DNA of 11,482 bases, taken from contig JAQWRF010000244.1 in assembly GCA_029243845.1 (NCBI GenBank), positions 1 through 11,482 of the forward strand, written 5' to 3'. Origin of the DNA: Planctomycetota bacterium. Lineage in GTDB: Bacteria; Planctomycetota; UBA1135. The notes beneath the pieces were generated by a model. That model had not been told where the DNA came from. It searched no databases and saw only the letters and a program-made list of their open reading frames with translations. Each line of letters opens with the position of its first letter. The stretch's first letter is position 1. This document shows positions 2,391 to 11,130 of this stretch, piece after piece. Position numbers and translations under genes: made by a program.

Positions 2391-3548
2391 TTATCCTACG
2401 TATTTCGCCATTGTTAGAATCGGAGTCATTAGCGACACCACAATGAAGCCAACTACGGCACCAGCAAGGACAACCGTGGCTGGCCCGAGCAGGGAAGTGA
2501 AAGTGTTTAGCGCCGCTTTGGTCTCGGCATCTAAAAACTCAGCTGCCTTACGCAGTGAGCTGTCAAGCGAACCAGAGGACTCGCCTGCAACAATCATTTG
2601 TGTAAGAGCCGGCGGCATTTCTTTGCCGCACATAACAGTGTGCATAGGGCGACCGTCGCGTACAGTGACAGCGGCTTTTTCCCATTGCGCTTGCAAGCGC
2701 GGTAATTCAGAAACTTGCCGCGCGTGTTCTAGTCCAGTCAGGATTGGCACGCCAGATTCAAGCGTTAGCGCTAAAGTGCCAACGGAACGTGACAAATAGG
2801 CCTTGAAAATCAAGTCGCCAATTACGGGCATTTTCGAGACGGCATCAAAAATCACCGCACGTGATTTTTTGGATTTTAGTGCGATGAGAAATGCTGCGAT
2901 TACCGTAATGATTCCGCCGAACACTAACTCTGGAGCTGAATGTAGGAGTTGGCTCGCTGAAAGGACAAGCTTGGTTGTCCATGGTAACTCGTCAGGACGC
3001 TTCATCATCAGGCCTTCAAATTTCGGTACCAAAAAGTACAAAATTCCAAGAGTCATAGTGAAAGTCATGAACATCAAAAACCCCGGATAGGTTAGTGCTG
3101 CTTTAATCTTGCTGCCTAGTTCTATTTGATTCGTTAGTAGTTCAATGCTGCGATCTAGGGACTCTTCCAACGCTCCTGCTTGTTCTCCAGCAGCGAGTAA
3201 GTGCACTACGTACTTTTCGAAGCAATTAGGTAGGCAGTCAAAAGCGTATGACAAATCGTGGCCGCCTTCAACGACTGTCGTTATTTTGCGCAAGACTTTT
3301 TCGGATTCTGGTGTTGTCGCGTGCTCAATCAATGAGCGCATTGCAGCAAGCAGTGGCACACCAGCGCTAAGCATAGCACGCATTTGAATCATTACTTGCA
3401 GCGCTTCTTTTGGCTTAAGCTTTATTCTTAAGTCAGCATGCGCAGGACCGTCTTCGACGGTTTGGCGTTCTGGCGGAGTCTCGCCACCAGCGTTGCCACC
3501 GAACACCTCGTCGTCTTGCGTTTTGTAAACAAATGATGTTAGGCTCAT
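2391..3548 (-). CDS. PilC/GspF/MshG-family inner-membrane platform protein
   Basis: This 385-residue polytopic protein is the membrane platform on which the motor ATPase acts to add or extract pilins. It carries two copies of the GspF domain. The first (about 48-171) includes MRAMLSAGVPLLAAM and LLAAGEQAGALEESL; the second (about 250-373) includes TLALTLESGVPILTGLEHA and MIVAGESSGSLDSSL. The paired AGE..G.L motifs are the family signature. Membrane segments lie near 155-175, 208-224 and 355-378. The N-terminal 45 residues are acidic, Gly-rich and probably cytoplasmic and flexible. Length is normal for the family. Its ATG overlaps the ATPase stop as ATGA, with a strong GGAGG 6 nt upstream, so the two partners are made together. 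Confidence 0.95.
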   Translation of the reverse strand: MSLTSFVYKTQDDEVFGGNAGGETPPERQTVEDGPAHADLRIKLKPKEALQVMIQMRAMLSAGVPLLAAMRSLIEHATTPESEKVLRKITTVVEGGHDLSYAFDCLPNCFEKYVVHLLAAGEQAGALEESLDRSIELLTNQIELGSKIKAALTYPGFLMFMTFTMTLGILYFLVPKFEGLMMKRPDELPWTTKLVLSASQLLHSAPELVFGGIITVIAAFLIALKSKKSRAVIFDAVSKMPVIGDLIFKAYLSRSVGTLALTLESGVPILTGLEHARQVSELPRLQAQWEKAAVTVRDGRPMHTVMCGKEMPPALTQMIVAGESSGSLDSSLRKAAEFLDAETKAALNTFTSLLGPATVVLAGAVVGFIVVSLMTPILTMAKYVG

Positions 3549-5482
3549 GACTTTCCTCCAGCACGCAGCGCCTCTTCAACAGTGGTTAAGCCAATGTTTA
3601 CCCGTTGGAAGGCATCGCTAAGCAAGGAGTCCATTCCTTCCTTAAGCGCTAAGCTTCGGATGTCAGACGAAGAGGGGTTACTGGCGATTAAATCTTGCAA
3701 TCCGTCCGTTACTTTCATTACTTCAAAGACACCGCGACGTCCATCGTAGCCCGTGTTACGACACGCTGGGCATCCTGCGGAGGCGAAGTGTTGTTGACGC
3801 TCTAGACCCTGTTTTGCATACTGATCATGCACCGACTCAGAATGTTCAATCGGTCGTTTACACGAGTCGCATAACTTTCTGACCAAGCGTTGCGCAATGA
3901 CTGCGCGTAGGGTTGCAGCAACCAAGAACGGCTCGACTCCCATTTGAATCAAACGTGATGCCGCACCGGGGGCATCGTTGGTGTGTAATGTCGCTAGAAC
4001 TAAGTGACCCGTCAGGGCAGCCTCTATCGCTATTTCGGCGGTTTCTTTGTCGCGAATTTCACCAATCATTATTACGTCGGGATCTTGGCGAAGTAGTGCG
4101 CGCAGGCACAACTCAAAAGATAAGCCTGCTTTGTAGTTTACTTGTGTTTGGTTTACGCCTTGCACCGAACGTTCAACAGGGTTCTCAACGGTAGACACAT
4201 TGGTTTCTGGAGTAACGATTTCGTCAAGCACGCTGTACAAGGTTGTTGTCTTGCCAGAACCCGTTGGTCCGGTGACTAATACCAGGCCGTGCGGCAGGTT
4301 AATGGCTTCATTTAACCACAAGCTATTGTTACTGGTTAGACCAAGGTGCTCTAGCGCTAAAGCTTCGGTGTTGCGGTTCAAAATACGCATTACAGCTTTT
4401 TCACCGTGTACGGTTGGTAGTGTATTGACGCGTAAGTCAACATCACGTGTCCGATCTTCATAATGAATGCGTCCATCTTGCGGTAGTCGCTTTTCGGAGA
4501 TGTCACAGCCGGCCGCAACTTTTATACGTGCCACCAACGAAGAACCAATATCATTTGCAAGTGGACCTACTTCATGCAGGCGACCATCGACGCGGTAGCG
4601 CAACAAGTAATTGTCTTGAAAAGGTTCGATGTGAATATCAGATGCGCCTTCAATGATAGCGTTTACAACAATTTCATTAAAACGCTCCTCTATCGGTACT
4701 TCATCTTCGTCGGTGTTTTCAACAGCAACGCTTCCTGAATGCGCACGCTGTAATTGATCGAGACCAATGTTGATTGCTTCTGGTGTAGTCACAGTTGTGA
4801 TTACGGACAGGCCGGTGTATTTGCGGACTACATCGCTAGCATAGACGTCGGCCGGGTCTTTTAGGGCAACGGCAAGTGTGTCGTTGAGGCGTAAGTAAGG
4901 CAGAATGCCGTGCACGCGCAATTCGGCGAAAGGCACATCGCATTCAAGAGATACGTCGAGAACTCCGTCATTAACCGGATTTACGAAAGGTAAATCGTGT
5001 TGTGCAGCCAAGGCACGAGCTAATTGCTCTTCGTCAATGTGACCTTCTTCGAGCATGATTTGCCCCAAATAAGAATCAGGGCGTTCACTTGATTTCTCGA
5101 TGGAATCATTTAGATCTTCATCATTTGAATAGCCTAATTGAATCAGCACCTCGCCCAGGCGAGCGCCATTATCGATGTTACTGGCGGCATCTGTGTCTTC
5201 GGATATGCCAAGCACTTCGTGTAGTCGAAACGAATTACAAGCCGCGCGCAAAGCGCTCGAAGGGTTCTCTATTGCCAGCATGCGCCCCTGACGATGAAGA
5301 GCGTGTACACCGTCAACCAACATCTGTAAGCCTTCAGAGTCAACCGTGATCACGTTGCTCGCGTCAACTACGCAGCTATCAGCAGTGCTTAATAGTTGCC
5401 ATAGCATATCGAACTCGTTGCTGTGCGCGCCGTTAAGCACACTCGGCAAGGAGAGGTTGGTGGTTGAAGTAGAGGGGTTCAT
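3545..5482 (-). CDS. GspE/PilB/MshE-family assembly ATPase with N-terminal STAS domain
   Basis: This 645-residue hexameric motor should power filament assembly from the cytoplasmic face. Residues about 8-94 form a STAS domain of the SpoIIAA/STAS_2 kind (CVVDASNVITVDSEGLQMLV, then NPSSALRAA), which is not a usual part of this family. Residues 107-162 hold two MshEN-type repeats (RLGEVL... and YLGQIM...LARALAAQ), the c-di-GMP-binding fold of MshE; the closing Gln of the first repeat is Ser131. The ATPase core shows Walker A GPTGSGKT (405-412), an Asp box reading TVENPVE (431-437), Walker B IMIGEIRD (471-478), the His box TGHLVLATLHTND (491-503), and a four-Cys zinc site (C538, C541, C571, C574). 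The absence of a preceding ribosome site and the ATGA overlap with the TPR gene suggest coupled translation. Which subfamily (PilB, MshE or GspE) is unsettled; MshE fits the gene order best. Confidence 0.95.
   Translation of the reverse strand: MNPSTSTTNLSLPSVLNGAHSNEFDMLWQLLSTADSCVVDASNVITVDSEGLQMLVDGVHALHRQGRMLAIENPSSALRAACNSFRLHEVLGISEDTDAASNIDNGARLGEVLIQLGYSNDEDLNDSIEKSSERPDSYLGQIMLEEGHIDEEQLARALAAQHDLPFVNPVNDGVLDVSLECDVPFAELRVHGILPYLRLNDTLAVALKDPADVYASDVVRKYTGLSVITTVTTPEAINIGLDQLQRAHSGSVAVENTDEDEVPIEERFNEIVVNAIIEGASDIHIEPFQDNYLLRYRVDGRLHEVGPLANDIGSSLVARIKVAAGCDISEKRLPQDGRIHYEDRTRDVDLRVNTLPTVHGEKAVMRILNRNTEALALEHLGLTSNNSLWLNEAINLPHGLVLVTGPTGSGKTTTLYSVLDEIVTPETNVSTVENPVERSVQGVNQTQVNYKAGLSFELCLRALLRQDPDVIMIGEIRDKETAEIAIEAALTGHLVLATLHTNDAPGAASRLIQMGVEPFLVAATLRAVIAQRLVRKLCDSCKRPIEHSESVHDQYAKQGLERQQHFASAGCPACRNTGYDGRRGVFEVMKVTDGLQDLIASNPSSSDIRSLALKEGMDSLLSDAFQRVNIGLTTVEEALRAGGKS
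3555..3559 (-). promoter_or_regulatory. Ribosome binding site GGAGG for the PilC-like gene
   Basis: GGAGG lies 6 nt before the ATG at 3548, inside the last codons of the ATPase gene. It fixes this start and its ATGA overlap with the ATPase stop. Confidence 0.75.
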
Positions 5483-6573
5483 AGAGCTGTGCTGTCTGTT
5501 GTTACCGCAGCGATTTTCGAATCTACATACTGCATAAGCAATTCGATACTACGGATGCCGTCGCGATCGCTTGATGCCATCATGAGAGCGGTGCGCGCTT
5601 GAGTGAAACGCTTATTCGTAATGTCAAGTTTGGCCTGCAGGATGTGCCCGCGCCAATCGCGTTTGCTAACGGCAACACGACTTAAAAAGTTTTGCGCTTG
5701 GTTAGAGTTGCTCTGTGCCCAGTAAACTCTGGCGGTAGCCATTAAGAAAAGTTCATTCTGTGGCTCGCGCTCGATCAAGAAGCGTAGTAGGTTAATGGCA
5801 GAATCTAAATCACCGCTATTTTCAGCGCTCTGTGCGGCACTAAACATTGGGTCGATGCCAGCGGCTGTTTCATTCAAAGCAATGCGTATCGATTCTGGCA
5901 TGTCAACATTAGGATCCATGTTGATCGCAGTGCGGTATGCTTCAGCGGCTGCAGTTAAGTCGCCTTGTGAAAGCAGTAGGTCGCCCGATGTGGTCCATGA
6001 GCTTGCGTGTTGTGGATCTTCTCTAAGCATGGCGCTGACAAAGTCCTGCGCCTGTTCCGTTTGACCTGTCGCAGCGTAGTGTGTGAGAATCACGCGCGCA
6101 AAGCTCGGATCGTTTTCGATAGCATCCCATGCGTACTCAAGAGTCTCAGAAGCTTTTTCAGTCTGTCCTGACTCAGCAAGAGCAGCCGCGTAAACCATAT
6201 TGATTTCTGGGTCGTTCGGTGCAAACAATGCCGCGCGCTCAGCATAGGCAAGTGCTTTTGTGACTTCCCCCTCAGCTAGAAACAAACGTGCAAGAGCAGC
6301 GTGGCACACTGTATCTTCAGGGTTGACTTCGCAAGCTTCAGACAGGTATTCACGTGCTTCTTCAATTAAGTTGCTTTCAAGAGCACGAAATGCAAAGGTG
6401 CGCAAGATATTACTGCGCGCGGCATTCCATTCTTCGACATCAATACCTTCCATGCGCTCCACTTCGGCATCGGTTAGATGGCGTACTTCATTAACTCGAA
6501 CATTGTCTAGCTCAGGAGTAGAAGAGGCGCAGCTTGCAAACAAGGCACAAACGATAAGGTAGGTATTTTTCAT
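5479..6573 (-). CDS. TPR-repeat lipoprotein (MshN/PilF-position protein)
   Basis: This 364-residue protein begins with a short signal peptide and a plausible lipobox, FASC with Cys15, so it is predicted to be a lipid-anchored periplasmic or outer-membrane protein. Phe at -3 is allowed but not ideal. From about residue 56 onward it is a run of tetratricopeptide-like helical pairs, for example at 56-84, 90-118, 124-152, 192-220, 242-270 and 276-304, with motifs such as AYAERAALFAPNDPEI and EAYRTAINMDPN. TPR lipoproteins help secretins reach and assemble in the outer membrane (PilF/PilW families), and MSHA loci carry the TPR protein MshN between secretin and ATPase, exactly the place seen here. 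A similar helper role is inferred. The ATG is fused to the secretin stop (TAATG) with GGAGA 7 nt upstream. Confidence 0.88.
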   Translation of the reverse strand: MKNTYLIVCALFASCASSTPELDNVRVNEVRHLTDAEVERMEGIDVEEWNAARSNILRTFAFRALESNLIEEAREYLSEACEVNPEDTVCHAALARLFLAEGEVTKALAYAERAALFAPNDPEINMVYAAALAESGQTEKASETLEYAWDAIENDPSFARVILTHYAATGQTEQAQDFVSAMLREDPQHASSWTTSGDLLLSQGDLTAAAEAYRTAINMDPNVDMPESIRIALNETAAGIDPMFSAAQSAENSGDLDSAINLLRFLIEREPQNELFLMATARVYWAQSNSNQAQNFLSRVAVSKRDWRGHILQAKLDITNKRFTQARTALMMASSDRDGIRSIELLMQYVDSKIAAVTTDSTAL

Positions 6574-8234
6574 TATTTGGTCTCCAGTATTTCTATTTGC
6601 TTAAGAAACTGAAGAGTGTTCTTCAACTCAATAGTTTCGTCACGAGTCGCAAAAATTTCATTGCGACAGTGTGCTGCTAGGGCGGCTAGATCTGGGTCGG
6701 CCGGCATTGCTGATAACCCCCATTCCGCCTTTGCAAGAGCAGTGCGGACGTCGCCTGCGGCGAGCGCTACTGCAGCTTCACGGTACAAATCGCGAGCGTA
6801 TGATGGGCGTAAGTAGCCGTGGTGCGAGGCAGCCAGCTCCGCGTGTGCGGCCTGCAAGCGTTGTCGGCTGCTATTACTGCGTGAAGATAAAGATGCGTCA
6901 TCAACAATGTGCGGAGTTAGCATTACGATAATCTCAGTTTTGATTTCAGATTCGCGTTGCGACTGAAAGAACTGACCAATAAGTGGTAGTGATCCAAGGA
7001 ATGGAATTTGTTCTGTTTGAGTAACCATGCTGCTTTCCATCAAGCCGCCAATTACAACAGTATTGCCTTCACGCACTAAGATATTCGTTTTAACTTCTGT
7101 GGTAGTTTCTTCTGGCAAGCCATCAGAGTTGATAAAGCCAGACGATTTCTTAGGGTAGACCTCCATGCGTACATAGCCGTCTTCACTAACGAAAGGGCGG
7201 AACACTAAAGAAGTACCCACTTCAAGAAAGGAAACCGATTGCAGTGAACCCGTTTGCGTCACAGTAGTTGTGATGTAAGGTAGCTTAGAGCCCACCAATA
7301 ATTCAGCAGCGTGACGATTTACAGTTAATATCTGTGGATTAGAAAGCACAGTAGCGTTGGCTACCGACTCTAGAGCTGACACAAACACGCCCACTTGATT
7401 ACGCAGGATGCCAAAGTGGAGGCCATCTGCAGCGCCGTCGGTAAAGCCCGTTTGCGTCAAGCCACCAAGCCATCCGTCAAGGTCGCCGCCAGTTACGTCA
7501 CCGGTCGCTATGCCACCGCTTACGTTCGTTGAACCACCCATGGATTGAAAGTCAATACCACCAAAGGCTGAGAAATCGACACCTAACTGAAAATCATCGT
7601 TTAGTGTGACCGATAAGATTGTCGCCTCAACAAGTACCTGCAAAGGTGGCACGTCGAGCTGACTCAATAAATCGCGGACTTTGATTACAGTCTGCTCGCT
7701 GGCATAAAGCACTAAGGTCTCGCGGTTAGCTTCTTCGTTGCCGCCAAGATCCGTTAGGCTATCTACACCTTTTTGTGCAGCCATTCCGGAAATCAATTGT
7801 TCGCTACCAACCAGTAGCGGGGCGAGCATTTTCGTTGCCTCGGCTGCGCGAATGTGGTTTAAGCGTAACACGGTTGGAAGGTAACGCACCGTTTGCGTTT
7901 GTCCCTCATCAGCAGATTTCGGGCGAACGATGATGAAGTTACCGTCAATCTCTAGACCGAGTTCGTTGGCTGCCAATATTTGGCGTAATGCATCTTCGAC
8001 AGGAGCGTCGAAGAAGTTCATGGTTACGGTGCCACCGATTTCGGGGCCGTACACCAAGTTCAATTTATAAGTCGCGCTGAATAATTCAAGAACCTGACCT
8101 AAGTCTTCGTCGTGAAAGTTGACAGTGATATTACTGTCCTCGCCAAGATCTGTGAAAGGACCTTGTTGTGCGCTAGTCAGAGTCGCGCTGCCCAGGCAGG
8201 CGATCAGGGTTAGTGTTAAGCGATTTAGAAGCAT
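6573..8234 (-). CDS. Secretin (PilQ/GspD/MshL family) with C-terminal helical extension
   Basis: This 553-residue protein forms the outer-membrane pore of the system. Numbered from ATG 8234, it has an export signal to about 22 (TSA before QQ); an LIAC tetrapeptide ending at Cys13 is an alternative lipobox. An STN/N0-type domain spans about 36-105 (ITVNFHDEDLGQVLELFS), a secretin N1-type domain about 120-195, and the secretin beta-barrel domain about 285-445, including the signature IPFLGSLPLIGQFF (410-423) and MLTPHIVDD at its end. About 105 further residues form a helical, TPR-like tail (RDLYREAAVALAAGD), unusual for the family. The frame also allows TTG at 8249; ATG 8234 is preferred for a normal signal peptide, though neither has a clear ribosome site. 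It overlaps the PilP-like gene by 62 nt. Confidence 0.94.
   Translation of the reverse strand: MLLNRLTLTLIACLGSATLTSAQQGPFTDLGEDSNITVNFHDEDLGQVLELFSATYKLNLVYGPEIGGTVTMNFFDAPVEDALRQILAANELGLEIDGNFIIVRPKSADEGQTQTVRYLPTVLRLNHIRAAEATKMLAPLLVGSEQLISGMAAQKGVDSLTDLGGNEEANRETLVLYASEQTVIKVRDLLSQLDVPPLQVLVEATILSVTLNDDFQLGVDFSAFGGIDFQSMGGSTNVSGGIATGDVTGGDLDGWLGGLTQTGFTDGAADGLHFGILRNQVGVFVSALESVANATVLSNPQILTVNRHAAELLVGSKLPYITTTVTQTGSLQSVSFLEVGTSLVFRPFVSEDGYVRMEVYPKKSSGFINSDGLPEETTTEVKTNILVREGNTVVIGGLMESSMVTQTEQIPFLGSLPLIGQFFQSQRESEIKTEIIVMLTPHIVDDASLSSRSNSSRQRLQAAHAELAASHHGYLRPSYARDLYREAAVALAAGDVRTALAKAEWGLSAMPADPDLAALAAHCRNEIFATRDETIELKNTLQFLKQIEILETK
6581..6585 (-). promoter_or_regulatory. Ribosome binding site GGAGA for the TPR lipoprotein gene
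   Basis: GGAGA sits 7 nt before the ATG at 6573, within the final secretin codons. It supports the TAATG start/stop fusion at this junction. Confidence 0.65.
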
Positions 8235-8877
8235 TTTTGAAGTTGGCAAGCTTCAGTTCGAACTCGTTTTCTCCAAGGTGGAGGACGACACGGCGTGAAT
8301 GTATTGCGCTAACTTCATATCGGATAGATTTGCCATCAAACTGAAGCTCTAAATAGTCACCATTTCGATATTGCTCGCCATTGATGATAGCTACAGCAGT
8401 TCCGCCGAAGATGGCGGTGGTGCTTAGGTCAAGGCCAAAACTATTGATATCAATCGACATAAACTCTTGTTCATCAATGACTTCTACGATTTCCTCGCTA
8501 ACCAAGTTGGTGTCATTACTGGCTTCAACGGCCTCTTCCATGACCGTGTTTAGCAGGTTGTTGATGGGGGTAATTTCTTCGATAGAACCGTGAAAAACCT
8601 TCCGATTGAGAGCTTTTGGCCAAACTTCGAGCCTCTGCAACGCAGTTTCGTATGAAACCACCTTGGAGCTGCTGCCAGCGGCGGCCGGGTGTACCGTTGG
8701 CCCGGCAATTGCGGTGGCGCTTGAGGCGACAGAGGCTACTACAGTTGTTCGGTCACCTTCGTCATTGGCAAAGAGGGTGCGCGACCACACAAAGCCAGCA
8801 CAGCAGAGCAATACCACCAAGGCAATAGCCTTCTTGCGTTGTGCCTGTTGACGCAATTCTTCTCCGCGAGAAACCAT
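8173..8877 (-). CDS. PilP/GspC/GspB-like periplasmic linker protein
   Basis: This 234-residue bitopic protein has a basic cytoplasmic start (MVSRGEELRQQAQRKK), one membrane helix (about 17-32), an Ala/Ser/Thr-rich linker (about 46-70), an acidic middle, and a C-terminal small beta domain (about 146-210). The beta domain carries AVAIINGEQYRNGD (161-174) followed by YEVSAIHSRRVVLHLGENEF, the pattern of the homology region of GspC, GspB and PilP that docks on the secretin N-terminal domain. It is therefore expected to link the inner-membrane platform to the secretin. Its place between the PilO-like gene and the secretin is that of PilP or MshK. GGAGG 7 nt upstream and a TAATG fusion with the PilO-like stop fix the start. 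Subfamily assignment is by position and domain pattern, since overall sequence is divergent. Confidence 0.82.
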   Translation of the reverse strand: MVSRGEELRQQAQRKKAIALVVLLCCAGFVWSRTLFANDEGDRTTVVASVASSATAIAGPTVHPAAAGSSSKVVSYETALQRLEVWPKALNRKVFHGSIEEITPINNLLNTVMEEAVEASNDTNLVSEEIVEVIDEQEFMSIDINSFGLDLSTTAIFGGTAVAIINGEQYRNGDYLELQFDGKSIRYEVSAIHSRRVVLHLGENEFELKLANFKNASKSLNTNPDRLPGQRDSD

Positions 8878-9434
8878 TATTCCGCCTCCGCTTGATCAGA
8901 ATCTTTGAGTACAGGAATCATGATTGATCCGGTTAAGCGAACGGCCCCATAGCTGGCCTGTGCAGAATCAAGGCTTGGCATAATAAAGGACAACTTCTCA
9001 AAGCGTACGAAGTGCTGACCTTGTTCTAATTGGTCAACTAATTTTACTAAGTCGGTATATCGCCCAGATCCCGTCACAATAAAGCGTACGGCCGTATCAC
9101 CTTTTTGTGCTGCCTTAGGCGTGATGTGTATCTCACAATTTAATTCAGCAGCCGCGCGATCGATTCTCTTCTGCACCAAGTGCGGGTTTAAGTCTTGTTC
9201 AAGATTCTCTAAGGCTTCACTTGCGACAGGTAAAAAATCTTGCCACATATCGTTTAATTCATCACGTTGTTGCGGCAACTTGCTATTCTGCTGCTGAATG
9301 GAAATCGCATTTGACTGCCTTTGAAGGTAGTTATCACGAGATTCAAGGTCTGGGTTGATTTGCACGCCCCAGATGACACCCGGAATCAAGATGAAACCGA
9401 GGAGGAAAATCACGCGGTGATATTTAACAGTCAT
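8877..9434 (-). CDS. pilO: PilO-like inner-membrane assembly protein
   Basis: This 185-residue bitopic protein has a short cytoplasmic start, one membrane helix (about 8-24), a Gln-rich predicted coiled coil (about 33-60), and a periplasmic ferredoxin-like domain (about 95-180). The segment GSGRYTDLVKLVDQLEQGQHF followed by VRFEKLSF (about 122-150) matches the conserved core of PilO/MshJ proteins. PilO pairs with PilN through coiled coil and fold and passes the link to PilP. It is flanked by the PilN- and PilP-like genes in the standard order. The start is well fixed by a perfect AAGGAGG 7 nt upstream and a TAATG fusion with the preceding stop. Confidence 0.9.
   Translation of the reverse strand: MTVKYHRVIFLLGFILIPGVIWGVQINPDLESRDNYLQRQSNAISIQQQNSKLPQQRDELNDMWQDFLPVASEALENLEQDLNPHLVQKRIDRAAAELNCEIHITPKAAQKGDTAVRFIVTGSGRYTDLVKLVDQLEQGQHFVRFEKLSFIMPSLDSAQASYGAVRLTGSIMIPVLKDSDQAEAE
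8885..8889 (-). promoter_or_regulatory. Ribosome binding site GGAGG for the PilP-like gene
   Basis: GGAGG lies 7 nt before the ATG at 8877, in the last codons of the PilO-like gene, and supports the TAATG junction. Confidence 0.7.
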
Positions 9435-10054
9435 TATCGCGCCTCCTTGTGCATTTTCGCTTTGTTTAATCCTGGCATCAGTAACTCACCACGTAAGTGA
9501 ATAGTCGCACGTACGGTATCGTTCATGTCCTCGACCAGTTCGGTGTTTTCGTCGATGCTAGCGTAGGTGAATGAGGTGAACTCACGCAGACGTTCTGGCA
9601 AGTTCATTAAGTTCTCATCGCCGCGCACTAGAGCAGTAATCTCTAAATGTATTTCGGCTGATTTGATTTTGCTCAAACCTTGACGGCGCAAATCGTGCTT
9701 GAATTCAATCTTTTCAATGAGCACGTATTCACCAACAGCGCTCGCTAGCTCTGCCAAAATGGAGCCCGCTGTTGGCATGCGCAAATGATCGCTCAGAGAA
9801 TCTAGTCGCGCAGCGTATTGATTCATATCTGCGTAGAGCATTCCGAGGTCTTGGCCAGCGCGAATTTCTTCTGAGTTCGGCGCTTCAGCCAATTCGGCTA
9901 TGCGGCGCTGCTGCTTCGCTTCAGCAGAAACGGTGAAGGCTCCGGCGAGGCAGGCCGCCATAAATAGCATTAATATCGCCACGCGACGCGTGGTTCGTCG
10001 GCGCTCTAAATGTTGCTCAAAGGCCACATTAGGCATGAAATCAGCTGTTTTCAT
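9434..10054 (-). CDS. pilN: PilN-like inner-membrane assembly protein
   Basis: From ATG 10054 this is a 206-residue bitopic protein. MKTADFMPNVAFEQHLERRR is the cytoplasmic tail; PilN tails normally read like INLLP and bind PilM, and here DFMPN stands in that place. One membrane helix follows (about 25-43), then a helical stretch with QQRRIAELAE, then a periplasmic alpha/beta domain with LAELASAVGEYVLIEKIEFK (about 99-118), the usual PilN core. The frame continues upstream to a possible start at 10096, but ATG 10054 is preferred: it gives TAATG fusion with the pilM stop, a GAGGG site 8 nt upstream, and a family-like N-terminus. Sequence is divergent; the assignment rests on topology, the core pattern and position between PilM- and PilO-like genes. 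Confidence 0.86.
   Translation of the reverse strand: MKTADFMPNVAFEQHLERRRTTRRVAILMLFMAACLAGAFTVSAEAKQQRRIAELAEAPNSEEIRAGQDLGMLYADMNQYAARLDSLSDHLRMPTAGSILAELASAVGEYVLIEKIEFKHDLRRQGLSKIKSAEIHLEITALVRGDENLMNLPERLREFTSFTYASIDENTELVEDMNDTVRATIHLRGELLMPGLNKAKMHKEAR
9442..9448 (-). promoter_or_regulatory. Ribosome binding site AAGGAGG for pilO
   Basis: A full consensus AAGGAGG lies 7 nt before the ATG at 9434, inside the end of the PilN-like gene. It is the strongest Shine-Dalgarno site in the window. Confidence 0.8.
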
Positions 10055-11130
10055 TATTTGTACCCTCGCATTGCTAAGCCTAGGGACACAGCCCATAGGT
10101 GTTGATTCTCTAAGACATGCTTGGGTGCATCAATGCCTAACTTGGTAAACGGTTTGGCGACCTCGGTTGGTATTTGTAGAGCATTCGCCAACGAAGTTTC
10201 CACTTCTGGTAAGTTCGCACCGAATCCGGTCAAGAAGACTTGATTGAGCTTGGCACCACGGTGACGATTCGCATAATGGCGTAAACAAGCACGAACTTCT
10301 TGCGCCACTGATTCGGACTCTAGGCGCAGTGCATGAAGTAATTCAGCGCCGCGCCCGAGAGCTTGTTCAGCTAGCTGCGAGATTGAGGTCGCTTGGGTTG
10401 ATTTAGAGGGGGCGGAGTCATCGTCATCGAAAACCAATTTGTTTAAATCAATTTCGTCAACGTTTAACACCTTGTCGAGTGTGCCCAGCAAACGTTCTCC
10501 GTTTAGCTGCATTGGTTTTAAGAAGCGTAATTCTCCACCTTGCATAATGCCGAAGAAAGAGTGCCCAAAACCTAGATGTAGAAAACCCCAAGGATTCTCT
10601 AGTTCGCCGTGCATTGCTTGCAAACTGCGTCCTAAGGGGAATGCCGAAATCTCAAGTCCGCAAGTCCGCATGCGTAAATTGTCGACGGCTTCTTCGCAAC
10701 GACGCTTTTCTGACTGACCGATACTTACCAGTAGCAGTTCTTCACGCGCCTGAAGATCGTCTTCTTCAAAGTTGCCATTCAGCGGAATGTAGCGATAGGC
10801 CACGCCTTCAGGGTCGTTGATCGATCGTAGTGCAGTTTCCTTCAAGGTTTGCTGCATCTTGCCGCGATTGTGCGCGTCAACCGGTACCAGCGAAACAGCG
10901 ACATCGTTGCCACTTAAACTAACTAAGCAATCTTTGCCGCGCGTTTTCATGTCTTTTAAACGCGGAAGCATATTTTCAACAACCGTCATTTGACGACCAG
11001 CTCCAGCAGCCTCTACTTCTTCCGCGCAACGTACCGACCAGCCCTTAGGGCCACCATCGAGTTGTAAAATGCGTGTTTCGAGTGCCCCAAAGTGGACGGC
11101 AATCGGCGAGGTTCGAGTAATAAATTTCAT
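10054..11130 (-). CDS. pilM: PilM-like actin-fold assembly protein
   Basis: This 358-residue cytoplasmic protein has the PilM/FtsA-type actin fold. The first phosphate loop is AVHFGALETRILQL (11-24), the second is LHLGFGHSFFGI (184-195), and the adenosine-loop region is VFLTGFGANLPEVE (298-311). A PilM-like insert with acidic DDDD lies at 235-238. PilM forms a ring under the inner membrane, binds the PilN tail and connects the platform to the motor. In typical members the two phosphate loops begin with Asp (DIG-like); here both positions are His (His13 and His185), so nucleotide binding may be altered or lost. ATG 11130 is the first possible start after an in-frame stop at 11134-11136, but the nearest GAGGA is 19 nt away, so initiation looks weak. 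It opens the run of machinery genes and is joined to pilN by TAATG. Confidence 0.9.
   Translation of the reverse strand: MKFITRTSPIAVHFGALETRILQLDGGPKGWSVRCAEEVEAAGAGRQMTVVENMLPRLKDMKTRGKDCLVSLSGNDVAVSLVPVDAHNRGKMQQTLKETALRSINDPEGVAYRYIPLNGNFEEDDLQAREELLLVSIGQSEKRRCEEAVDNLRMRTCGLEISAFPLGRSLQAMHGELENPWGFLHLGFGHSFFGIMQGGELRFLKPMQLNGERLLGTLDKVLNVDEIDLNKLVFDDDDSAPSKSTQATSISQLAEQALGRGAELLHALRLESESVAQEVRACLRHYANRHRGAKLNQVFLTGFGANLPEVETSLANALQIPTEVAKPFTKLGIDAPKHVLENQHLWAVSLGLAMRGYK
10063..10067 (-). promoter_or_regulatory. Ribosome binding site GAGGG deciding the pilN start
   Basis: GAGGG lies 8 nt before ATG 10054 within the last codons of pilM. It favours the short PilN form over the in-frame start at 10096. 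Confidence 0.65.

Follow-up and report, generated by a model that had tools for sequence, protein, structure and literature searches.

Introduction

Control of pilus and type II-like motors is known mainly for cyclic di-GMP (c-di-GMP) acting on the MshEN domain and for a few accessory proteins, and motors of the GspE and PilB types carry platform-binding domains at their N-terminus. The partner switch of the STAS protein SpoIIAA requires a kinase and a phosphatase. Here we describe an assembly ATPase of the PilB/GspE/MshE type with a STAS domain at its N-terminus, encoded on contig JAQWRF010000244.1 of a Planctomycetota bacterium (lineage UBA1135, assembly GCA_029243845.1). The whole stretch of DNA analysed, 11,482 nucleotides long, is called the window, and coordinates are window positions unless stated otherwise.

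The best profile match of the fused STAS domain among solved structures is MlaB (2.7e-6), which resembles it in being a single STAS serving a transport ATPase and in having a D-T/S-x-G loop with Ser or Thr at the equivalent place. According to two reports, MlaB binds the MlaF ATPase by the face of its helix alpha-2, its loop residue Thr52 lies at the interface and T52E weakens binding (PMC7367683), and T52A abolishes ATPase activity (PMC5016091). MlaB differs in being a separate protein on the ATP-binding cassette ATPase MlaF, whereas the ATPase here is a T2SSE motor, hexameric in its solved relatives. The window's STAS domain reaches 21.7 of the 90 bits that the NCBIfam MlaB equivalog model asks for; it is not MlaB, though by analogy it may work in an MlaB-like way. 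SpoIIAA and RsbV share with it the STAS fold and a phospho-acceptor serine (Ser58 in SpoIIAA, Ser49 here); they differ in that the window's STAS is fused to an ATPase and that no SpoIIAB/RsbW-type partner scores over cut-off in its genome. In SypA/SypE of Vibrio fischeri, as in further proteins consisting of STAS alone, a STAS domain stands under a response-regulator protein and has a non-sigma output; where the targets are known, these are not assembly ATPases, and a review of such proteins makes no mention of pilus, ATPase or Planctomycet (PMC8256260).

Results

The assembly ATPase begins with a STAS domain

The ATPase gene and the parts of its product are arranged as follows.

3545..5482, minus strand: assembly ATPase (PilB/GspE/MshE type), 645 residues, with STAS at the N-terminus; T2SSE (PF00437) 426 bits
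5201..5461, minus strand: STAS domain, residues about 8-94, from Pfam match (residues 10-82, 5237-5455) and predicted fold
5330..5341, minus strand: Asp48-Ser49-Glu50-Gly51, the STAS phospho-loop motif, with Ser49 equivalent to SpoIIAA Ser58 and MlaB Thr52 by conservation and alignments
4997..5164, minus strand: residues 107-162, paired motifs of the MshE type preceding the Pfam MshEN match; NCBIfam NF053729 39.1 bits, cut-off 38
4742..4996, minus strand: MshEN domain, residues 163-247; PF05157 32.9 bits, cut-off 23.1
3563..4708, minus strand: T2SSE ATPase core, residues 259-640; 426 bits

The N-terminus of this protein is a STAS domain. Taken alone, residues 1-99 match PF13466 (STAS_2) at 40.0 bits over residues 10-82 (cut-off 29.2) and PF01740 (STAS) at 25.8 bits (cut-off 22.6); in the whole protein the two models score 35.9 and 22.1 bits, the latter just below its cut-off. 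A six-frame search of the window's genome (1.8 Mb in 391 contigs, 84.8% complete) returned 5237-5455 on the minus strand as the sole STAS_2 match, and three STAS profiles built in this analysis gave one match each, the site of one of them not being among the matches listed. Against solved structures the single STAS sequence found nothing significant, and a profile built from 20 family members found MlaB, as given above, and TM1442 (9.5e-5); because it does so, the assignment is, on profile evidence, no chance match. The same profile did not match the SpoIIAA structure 1auz significantly (0.59).

The predicted structure of residues 1-104 (mean predicted local distance difference test score 75.3, predicted template modelling score (pTM) 0.60) has the order E-H-E-H-E-H, and nearly all of the 50 Foldseek matches listed for it are to STAS domains or to transporters that bear one (SulP, SpoIIAA, RsbV, MlaB, TM1442). 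The best E value was 5.0e-4 and just 2 matches reached 0.001 or better, which the shortness of the domain may explain. A preliminary description of this DNA, made from its letters, had placed a STAS domain at residues about 8-94, ahead of MshEN, and had proposed a domain search and structure prediction of the N-terminus; these agree with it, the STAS_2 match being over cut-off, the predicted fold that of STAS, and MshEN and T2SSE following in that order. An ordinary variant of the GspE/PilB N-terminal domain is ruled out, because the domain lies before the MshEN motifs and is STAS by both sequence and fold.

Downstream of the STAS domain the protein has the MshEN and T2SSE parts of PilB, GspE and MshE, with 41-47% identity to solved PilB, PilF and GspE chains (first 24 Foldseek matches). 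These solved relatives differ in that, among the matches listed, the best stretch of each starts at residue 100 or later. The protein stays under the NCBIfam equivalog cut-offs for both PilB (528.1 of 675.65 bits) and GspE (508.3 of 630.25 bits). In 21 aligned ATPases the Walker A motif GPTGSGKT (G405-T412) is invariant except for the nearly invariant S409, and so are two cysteine pairs (C538/C541/C571/C574).

The fusion is a standing feature of the family

The fusion is no oddity of one genome. When 61 genomes of the window's order, often incomplete and 26 of them from its family, were searched with the ATPase protein, the ATPase with its STAS part was found in 21 of the 26, one copy (G016) breaking off at residue 70, where its contig ends; in the 35 non-family genomes none of the matches listed starts within the first 36 residues. 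The STAS profile scored 104-142 bits in 20 family genomes versus at best 42.4 bits in 128 non-family genomes of the order, whose weaker hits were opened in part. Moreover, the fusion is tied to its operon: the 21 genomes that carry it are the 21 that carry the machine's GspF (at least 55% identity; in two pieces in G012 and G019), and both are absent from G008, G013, G015, G017 and G020, the remaining five genomes of the family, whose best GspF match has 24-31% identity.

A large protein set gave the same picture. Among 7999 proteins scored, of which the best 120 were listed, all 77 clusters at 973 bits or more, including the window's own, carry STAS, and the other 43 (780 bits or less, the first five short or partial) yield no STAS match with an E value of 1 or lower. 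The preliminary description knew of no standard PilB, GspE or MshE type with a STAS domain and had suggested looking for further STAS, MshEN and T2SSE combinations; within the best 120 these form the one closed set of 77 clusters, and none turned up outside it. Named genome-collection records of the fusion come from metagenome-assembled genomes (MAGs) of Planctomycetota or Planctomycetes, UBA1135 and UBA7888 among them, and from one uncultured bacterium; a twentieth record, an Actinobacteria MAG, matched residues 139-243 only. In the large protein set the fused proteins are labelled PilB, GspE or TadA by their sources. One fused protein (P0152), 75% identical to the window's, is labelled as from a Myxococcota MAG, which probably reflects a misbinned or mislabelled contig, or transfer.

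A separate STAS gene precedes the ATPase gene in relatives

In relatives outside the family a separate STAS gene lies directly upstream of the ATPase gene. The slot between the TPR and ATPase genes of G026, a genome from another family of the order, holds genes for a histidine kinase (530 residues), a response regulator (132 residues) and a STAS protein (114 residues), the last ending 3 bases before the ATPase start. This cassette of kinase, regulator, STAS and ATPase recurs in G033, G135, G136, G146, G147, G149 and G152, with the regulator, STAS and ATPase genes tightly spaced. Kinase, STAS and ATPase genes are also present in G085, where the regulator's place, between the kinase and STAS genes, holds just a short open frame (L214 1100-1500), possibly the remnant of a response regulator. 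Nine genomes of the window's order have a separate STAS gene directly upstream of the ATPase, one of them also among the 46 places described below. Another family of the phylum has a STAS gene of 99-138 residues between secretin and ATPase in 6 of 6 genomes, overlapping the ATPase start by 4 bp in five and lying 28 bp from it in one; in two stretches read from another family no regulator gene stands between secretin, STAS and ATPase.

We searched 392 genomes of the phylum with a profile of separate STAS genes and opened the best 70 places. An ATPase gene followed directly downstream on the same strand at 46 of these 70 (27 among the top 30, 19 among the remaining 40), which are counts and not prevalences; at the other 24 (3 and 21) no ATPase occupied the expected place. 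STAS and ATPase overlap by 4 bp in 19 of the 46 pairs. Where about 2 kb of flank was available, a kinase and/or regulator match accompanied 17 of 19 pairs, its exact place unchecked. The relatives of one separate STAS gene, among them one from a Gimesia MAG, bear the names anti-sigma B factor antagonist, anti-anti-sigma factor or STAS domain-containing protein. Some matches within the window's order contained an internal stop: those in L024 (G033) and L023 (G026) are true separate STAS genes, and those in L029 and L031 were rejected as pilT-type frames before the ATPase.

STAS-linked ATPases group together

In a maximum-likelihood tree of 72 ATPase cores, unrooted and with 23 hand-chosen non-STAS ATPases from the same phylum, 35 separate-STAS and 14 fused ATPases stand on one side and the 23 other assembly ATPases on the other (support 97/94; 98% of 200 bootstrap trees). 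The 14 fused ATPases fall together with support 100/100. Eleven rows had been left out, 8 PilT-like and 3 long-branched (L246, L243, L261); a larger quick tree that includes such rows and long branches recovers the same split at support 79, its inner order being partly open. Upstream of the 23 non-STAS ATPases, profile scanning detected no STAS on their own strand; two STAS hits of 37-38 bits lay on the opposite strand (L025, L028). As the upstream sequence was shorter than 250 bases for 10 of 35 listed ATPase frames, 11 further upstream stretches were added, which gave no STAS match at E 1 or better. The simplest reading of these trees would be one STAS-linked ATPase lineage and one fusion event.

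The loop serine is the conserved phospho-acceptor position

The SpoIIAA loop residue whose mutation or phosphorylation matters is Ser58, as the review states (PMC8256260), and the motif reads D57-S58-S59-G60, the sequence agreeing letter for letter with 1auz. Since Ser58 holds the second place of DSSG, it pairs with Ser49 here, and Ser59 pairs with Glu50; the MlaB alignment agrees, setting Asp-Thr-Gly-Gly beneath D-S-x-G. Position 49 is Ser in 18 and Thr in 2 of 20 family members, and Ser or Thr in all 77 fused clusters (76 and 1), where D48 and G51 are equally fixed (77/77 each). Position 50 varies freely across those clusters (R 18, E 16, A 13, S 11, G and others). The preliminary description had matched Glu50 to the phosphorylated serine and suggested a phospho-mimic state; both ideas fail, as the aligned residue is Ser49 and the residue invoked is a variable one. 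Judged from the alignments, the phospho-acceptor position is intact and there is no built-in phospho-mimic.

An alignment of 15 separate STAS proteins likewise shows no change of the loop serine. Of the 46 separate STAS proteins in gene pairs, 43 match a motif pattern that itself requires S or T at this place, with S every time; two more show DS by eye, and the frame of one was not recovered for this check. In one family of the order (L221, L222, L223, L224, L225, L230, L231) the loop Asp is replaced by Asn with the Ser retained, the variants being QANSAGLE, QANSVGLQ and QPNSAGLQ.

A classical partner switch is not supported in the window's genome

The search for a partner kinase and phosphatase, likewise proposed in the preliminary description, gave it no support in the window's genome, which is about 85% complete, so that absence there is no proof. 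The single HATPase_c_2 match, the RsbW/SpoIIAB type of kinase, scored 22.3 bits, under the cut-off of 27.4. One HAMP-SpoIIE protein (74.7 bits) is encoded on another contig, beside uvrD- and pgpA-like genes; SpoIIE-type matches (PF07228) occur in 23 of 26 family genomes, among them G008, which is without the operon. Six HAMP-SpoIIE proteins aligned to 3ke6, and all nine whose sequences were read, have another residue in place of the GDV-motif Asp; the other metal ligands were judged by eye only, and the protein may be a dead phosphatase. A canonical RsbW/SpoIIE switch is therefore unsupported, the kinase match being under cut-off and the SpoIIE protein being off-contig, seemingly degenerate and present without the operon in G008.

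The HAMP-SpoIIE membrane protein (L109 2586-3998, minus strand, contig C314) and its relatives (L110-L117) are about 465-490 residues long, 546 in the longest frame, and neighbour uvrD-like, pgpA-like and often mazG-like genes; this possibly dead phosphatase may have a lasting function. On contig C191 of G016 (L091, L097), 484-residue frames with a SpoIIE match and a strong HATPase_c_2 match (103.8 bits) neighbour a second STAS match; no partner-switch set so close to the classical kind is seen in the window's genome.

The surrounding operon

The neighbours of the ATPase gene, all on the minus strand, are listed in the order of transcription.

10054..11130, minus strand: PilM-like protein; PF11104 42.0 bits
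8173..10096, minus strand: three small genes (9434-10096, 8877-9434, 8173-8877) in the PilN, PilO and PilP/GspB place, named by position only
6573..8249, minus strand: secretin; PF00263 138.2 bits
5479..6573, minus strand: TPR protein directly upstream of the ATPase gene, with a 4-bp overlap
2391..3548, minus strand: inner-membrane platform protein (GspF/PilC family); PF00482 160.8 bits
960..2388, minus strand: three pilin- or pseudopilin-like genes (1966-2388, 1517-1987, 960-1571)

A Pfam scan of the three small genes gave no match over cut-off. Of the pilin-like genes, 1966-2388 alone passes the N_methyl cut-off of 21.2 bits (27.5), the other two scoring 17.2 and 18.1 bits. The order from PilM-like gene to pilins is conserved across the 14 family stretches compared, some of which end at contig edges; in one of them the small gene before the secretin is without a match. 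In all 14 the end of the TPR gene lies no more than 58 bp from the ATPase frame, which leaves no room in the family for a kinase or regulator gene in the slot that holds these genes in relatives; this applies to that slot, other places of the operon not having been searched for such genes.

Discussion

The association of the STAS domain with the ATPase is close to certain, and the mechanism offered here is a proposal. We think it rather likely that the domain regulates the filament-assembly motor as MlaB does MlaF, being a module that gene fusion has made a permanent part of it. A separate regulatory STAS protein, encoded just upstream of the ATPase, would have become the N-terminus of the ATPase in the window's family. 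By analogy with MlaB, the domain would dock on the motor, either on its own hexamer or on the PilM/GspF platform, through the surface formed around helix alpha-2, with Ser49 as the N-cap residue; docking would decide if ATP can be hydrolysed, and the contact would be broken or made by a partner or by modification of Ser49. In relatives the single-domain response regulator would act on the STAS protein, as the neighbouring kinase and regulator genes suggest. We infer the STAS-ATPase binding, the gating of activity and the regulator-to-STAS step from these comparisons. The preliminary description had proposed that filament assembly is gated by a phospho- or partner-switch signal: signal input has become likelier, because histidine kinase and response regulator genes lie beside the separate STAS gene in relatives, and a switch of the SpoIIAB/SpoIIE type is unsupported.

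A c-di-GMP input through MshEN may exist besides. GGDEF is present in 26 of 26 family genomes, the c-di-GMP motif model NF053729 scores just over its cut-off, and Arg108 is kept in 51 of 77 fused clusters. In the other 26 the first c-di-GMP motif (within 4997-5164, minus strand) is eroding, with Arg108 changed to D, N, L and others; where this residue is lost, STAS control may have taken over from c-di-GMP.

Several observations weigh against the proposed mechanism. STAS domains in general have a conserved Asp-Ser loop, which is no proof of phosphorylation. STAS is the fastest-changing part of the fused protein (mean pairwise identity 0.41 versus 0.72 in the ATPase core over the 77 clusters), which fits a loose tether equally well. 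The profile that found the STAS-ATPase pairs was built from ATPase-neighbour STAS genes, which inflates their share among the 70 places; with the fused-family profile an ATPase is adjacent at 2 of 28 STAS loci outside fused genes (L149, L153), and three other rows of that comparison (L160, L087, L158) set STAS against STAS. A kinase or regulator match accompanies just 5 of 27 pairs with 1.5 kb of flank. Six separate-STAS ATPases stand apart in an unresolved fork of the quick tree. Finally, the model of the full-length ATPase (pTM 0.47) does not place the packing of the STAS domain.

Such a tether is the main competing explanation: STAS would be a docking module only, holding or positioning the ATPase on the PilM/PilN/GspF platform as the GspE N-domain does with GspL, without switching. 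Its place at the extreme N-terminus, where GspE and PilB types have their platform-binding domains, speaks for this, as do the closed slot, in which the TPR gene leaves no room for a kinase or regulator, and the other family whose two stretches have no regulator gene between secretin, STAS and ATPase. A plain tether, however, calls neither for a Ser or Thr that stays fixed at position 49 in 77 of 77 clusters despite the fast change of the rest of the domain, nor for the kinase and regulator genes with which relatives pair the STAS gene, and we regard docking alone as unlikely, though the most credible of the alternatives. A passenger domain from a chance fusion, without function, would account for STAS being the least conserved part of the protein; its retention in every fused cluster with fixed motif residues, and the separate gene that occupies the same place in other families, make this barely credible.

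Two further alternatives take the likeness to SpoIIAA literally. In a classical partner switch, a SpoIIAB/RsbW-type kinase would phosphorylate Ser49, a SpoIIE-type phosphatase would reverse this, and the state of the residue would gate assembly. The phospho-acceptor is present and conserved, SpoIIE-type matches are found in most family genomes (23 of 26), and a few relatives have stronger RsbW-type or SpoIIE matches; the sub-threshold kinase match in the incomplete genome, and a SpoIIE protein that sits on another contig, has its GDV Asp replaced in 9 of 9 and is encoded in the operon-less G008 as well, render such a switch improbable. The STAS domain might instead link the machine to transcription, binding an anti-sigma factor and releasing a sigma factor depending on the motor's state, as the names of some separate homologues (anti-sigma B factor antagonist, anti-anti-sigma factor) would have it. 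Such names may derive from the domain alone, however; no RsbW-type anti-sigma match over cut-off occurs in the window's genome, and STAS lies directly before the ATPase at 46 of 70 places (sigma and anti-sigma genes were not searched for there). We hold a transcriptional link to be very improbable.

Our preferred reading, that of a regulatory module on the motor, would extend beyond the window's family. We give about even chances to the STAS protein being a dedicated subunit of one secretin-linked pilus or type II-like lineage across Planctomycetota, set by a nearby kinase and regulator and switching the motor directly, with the STAS fused and the two-component genes gone from the slot in the window's family. 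A literature search on STAS with type IV pili, type II secretion or GspE, MshEN, or planctomycete GspE found no report at the level of titles and abstract beginnings, with partial coverage. If the reading is true, this would be, to our knowledge, the first case of STAS control of a type II/IV assembly ATPase; what would be new is the joining of STAS control to an assembly ATPase, each of a known kind.

In summary, the STAS domain is probably a regulatory part of a pilus- or secretion-type machine, because it is fused to the motor in the window's family and encoded by a separate gene just before the motor gene in many Planctomycetota. Control through a STAS domain attached to the motor, with two-component genes close by in relatives, would, if true, differ in kind from control by c-di-GMP or by the few known accessory proteins. 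The naming of some separate homologues also comes into question: they are filed as anti-sigma factor antagonists, yet their gene neighbourhood points to a filament motor, and the fusion serves as a Rosetta stone indicating what the separate STAS protein probably acts on.

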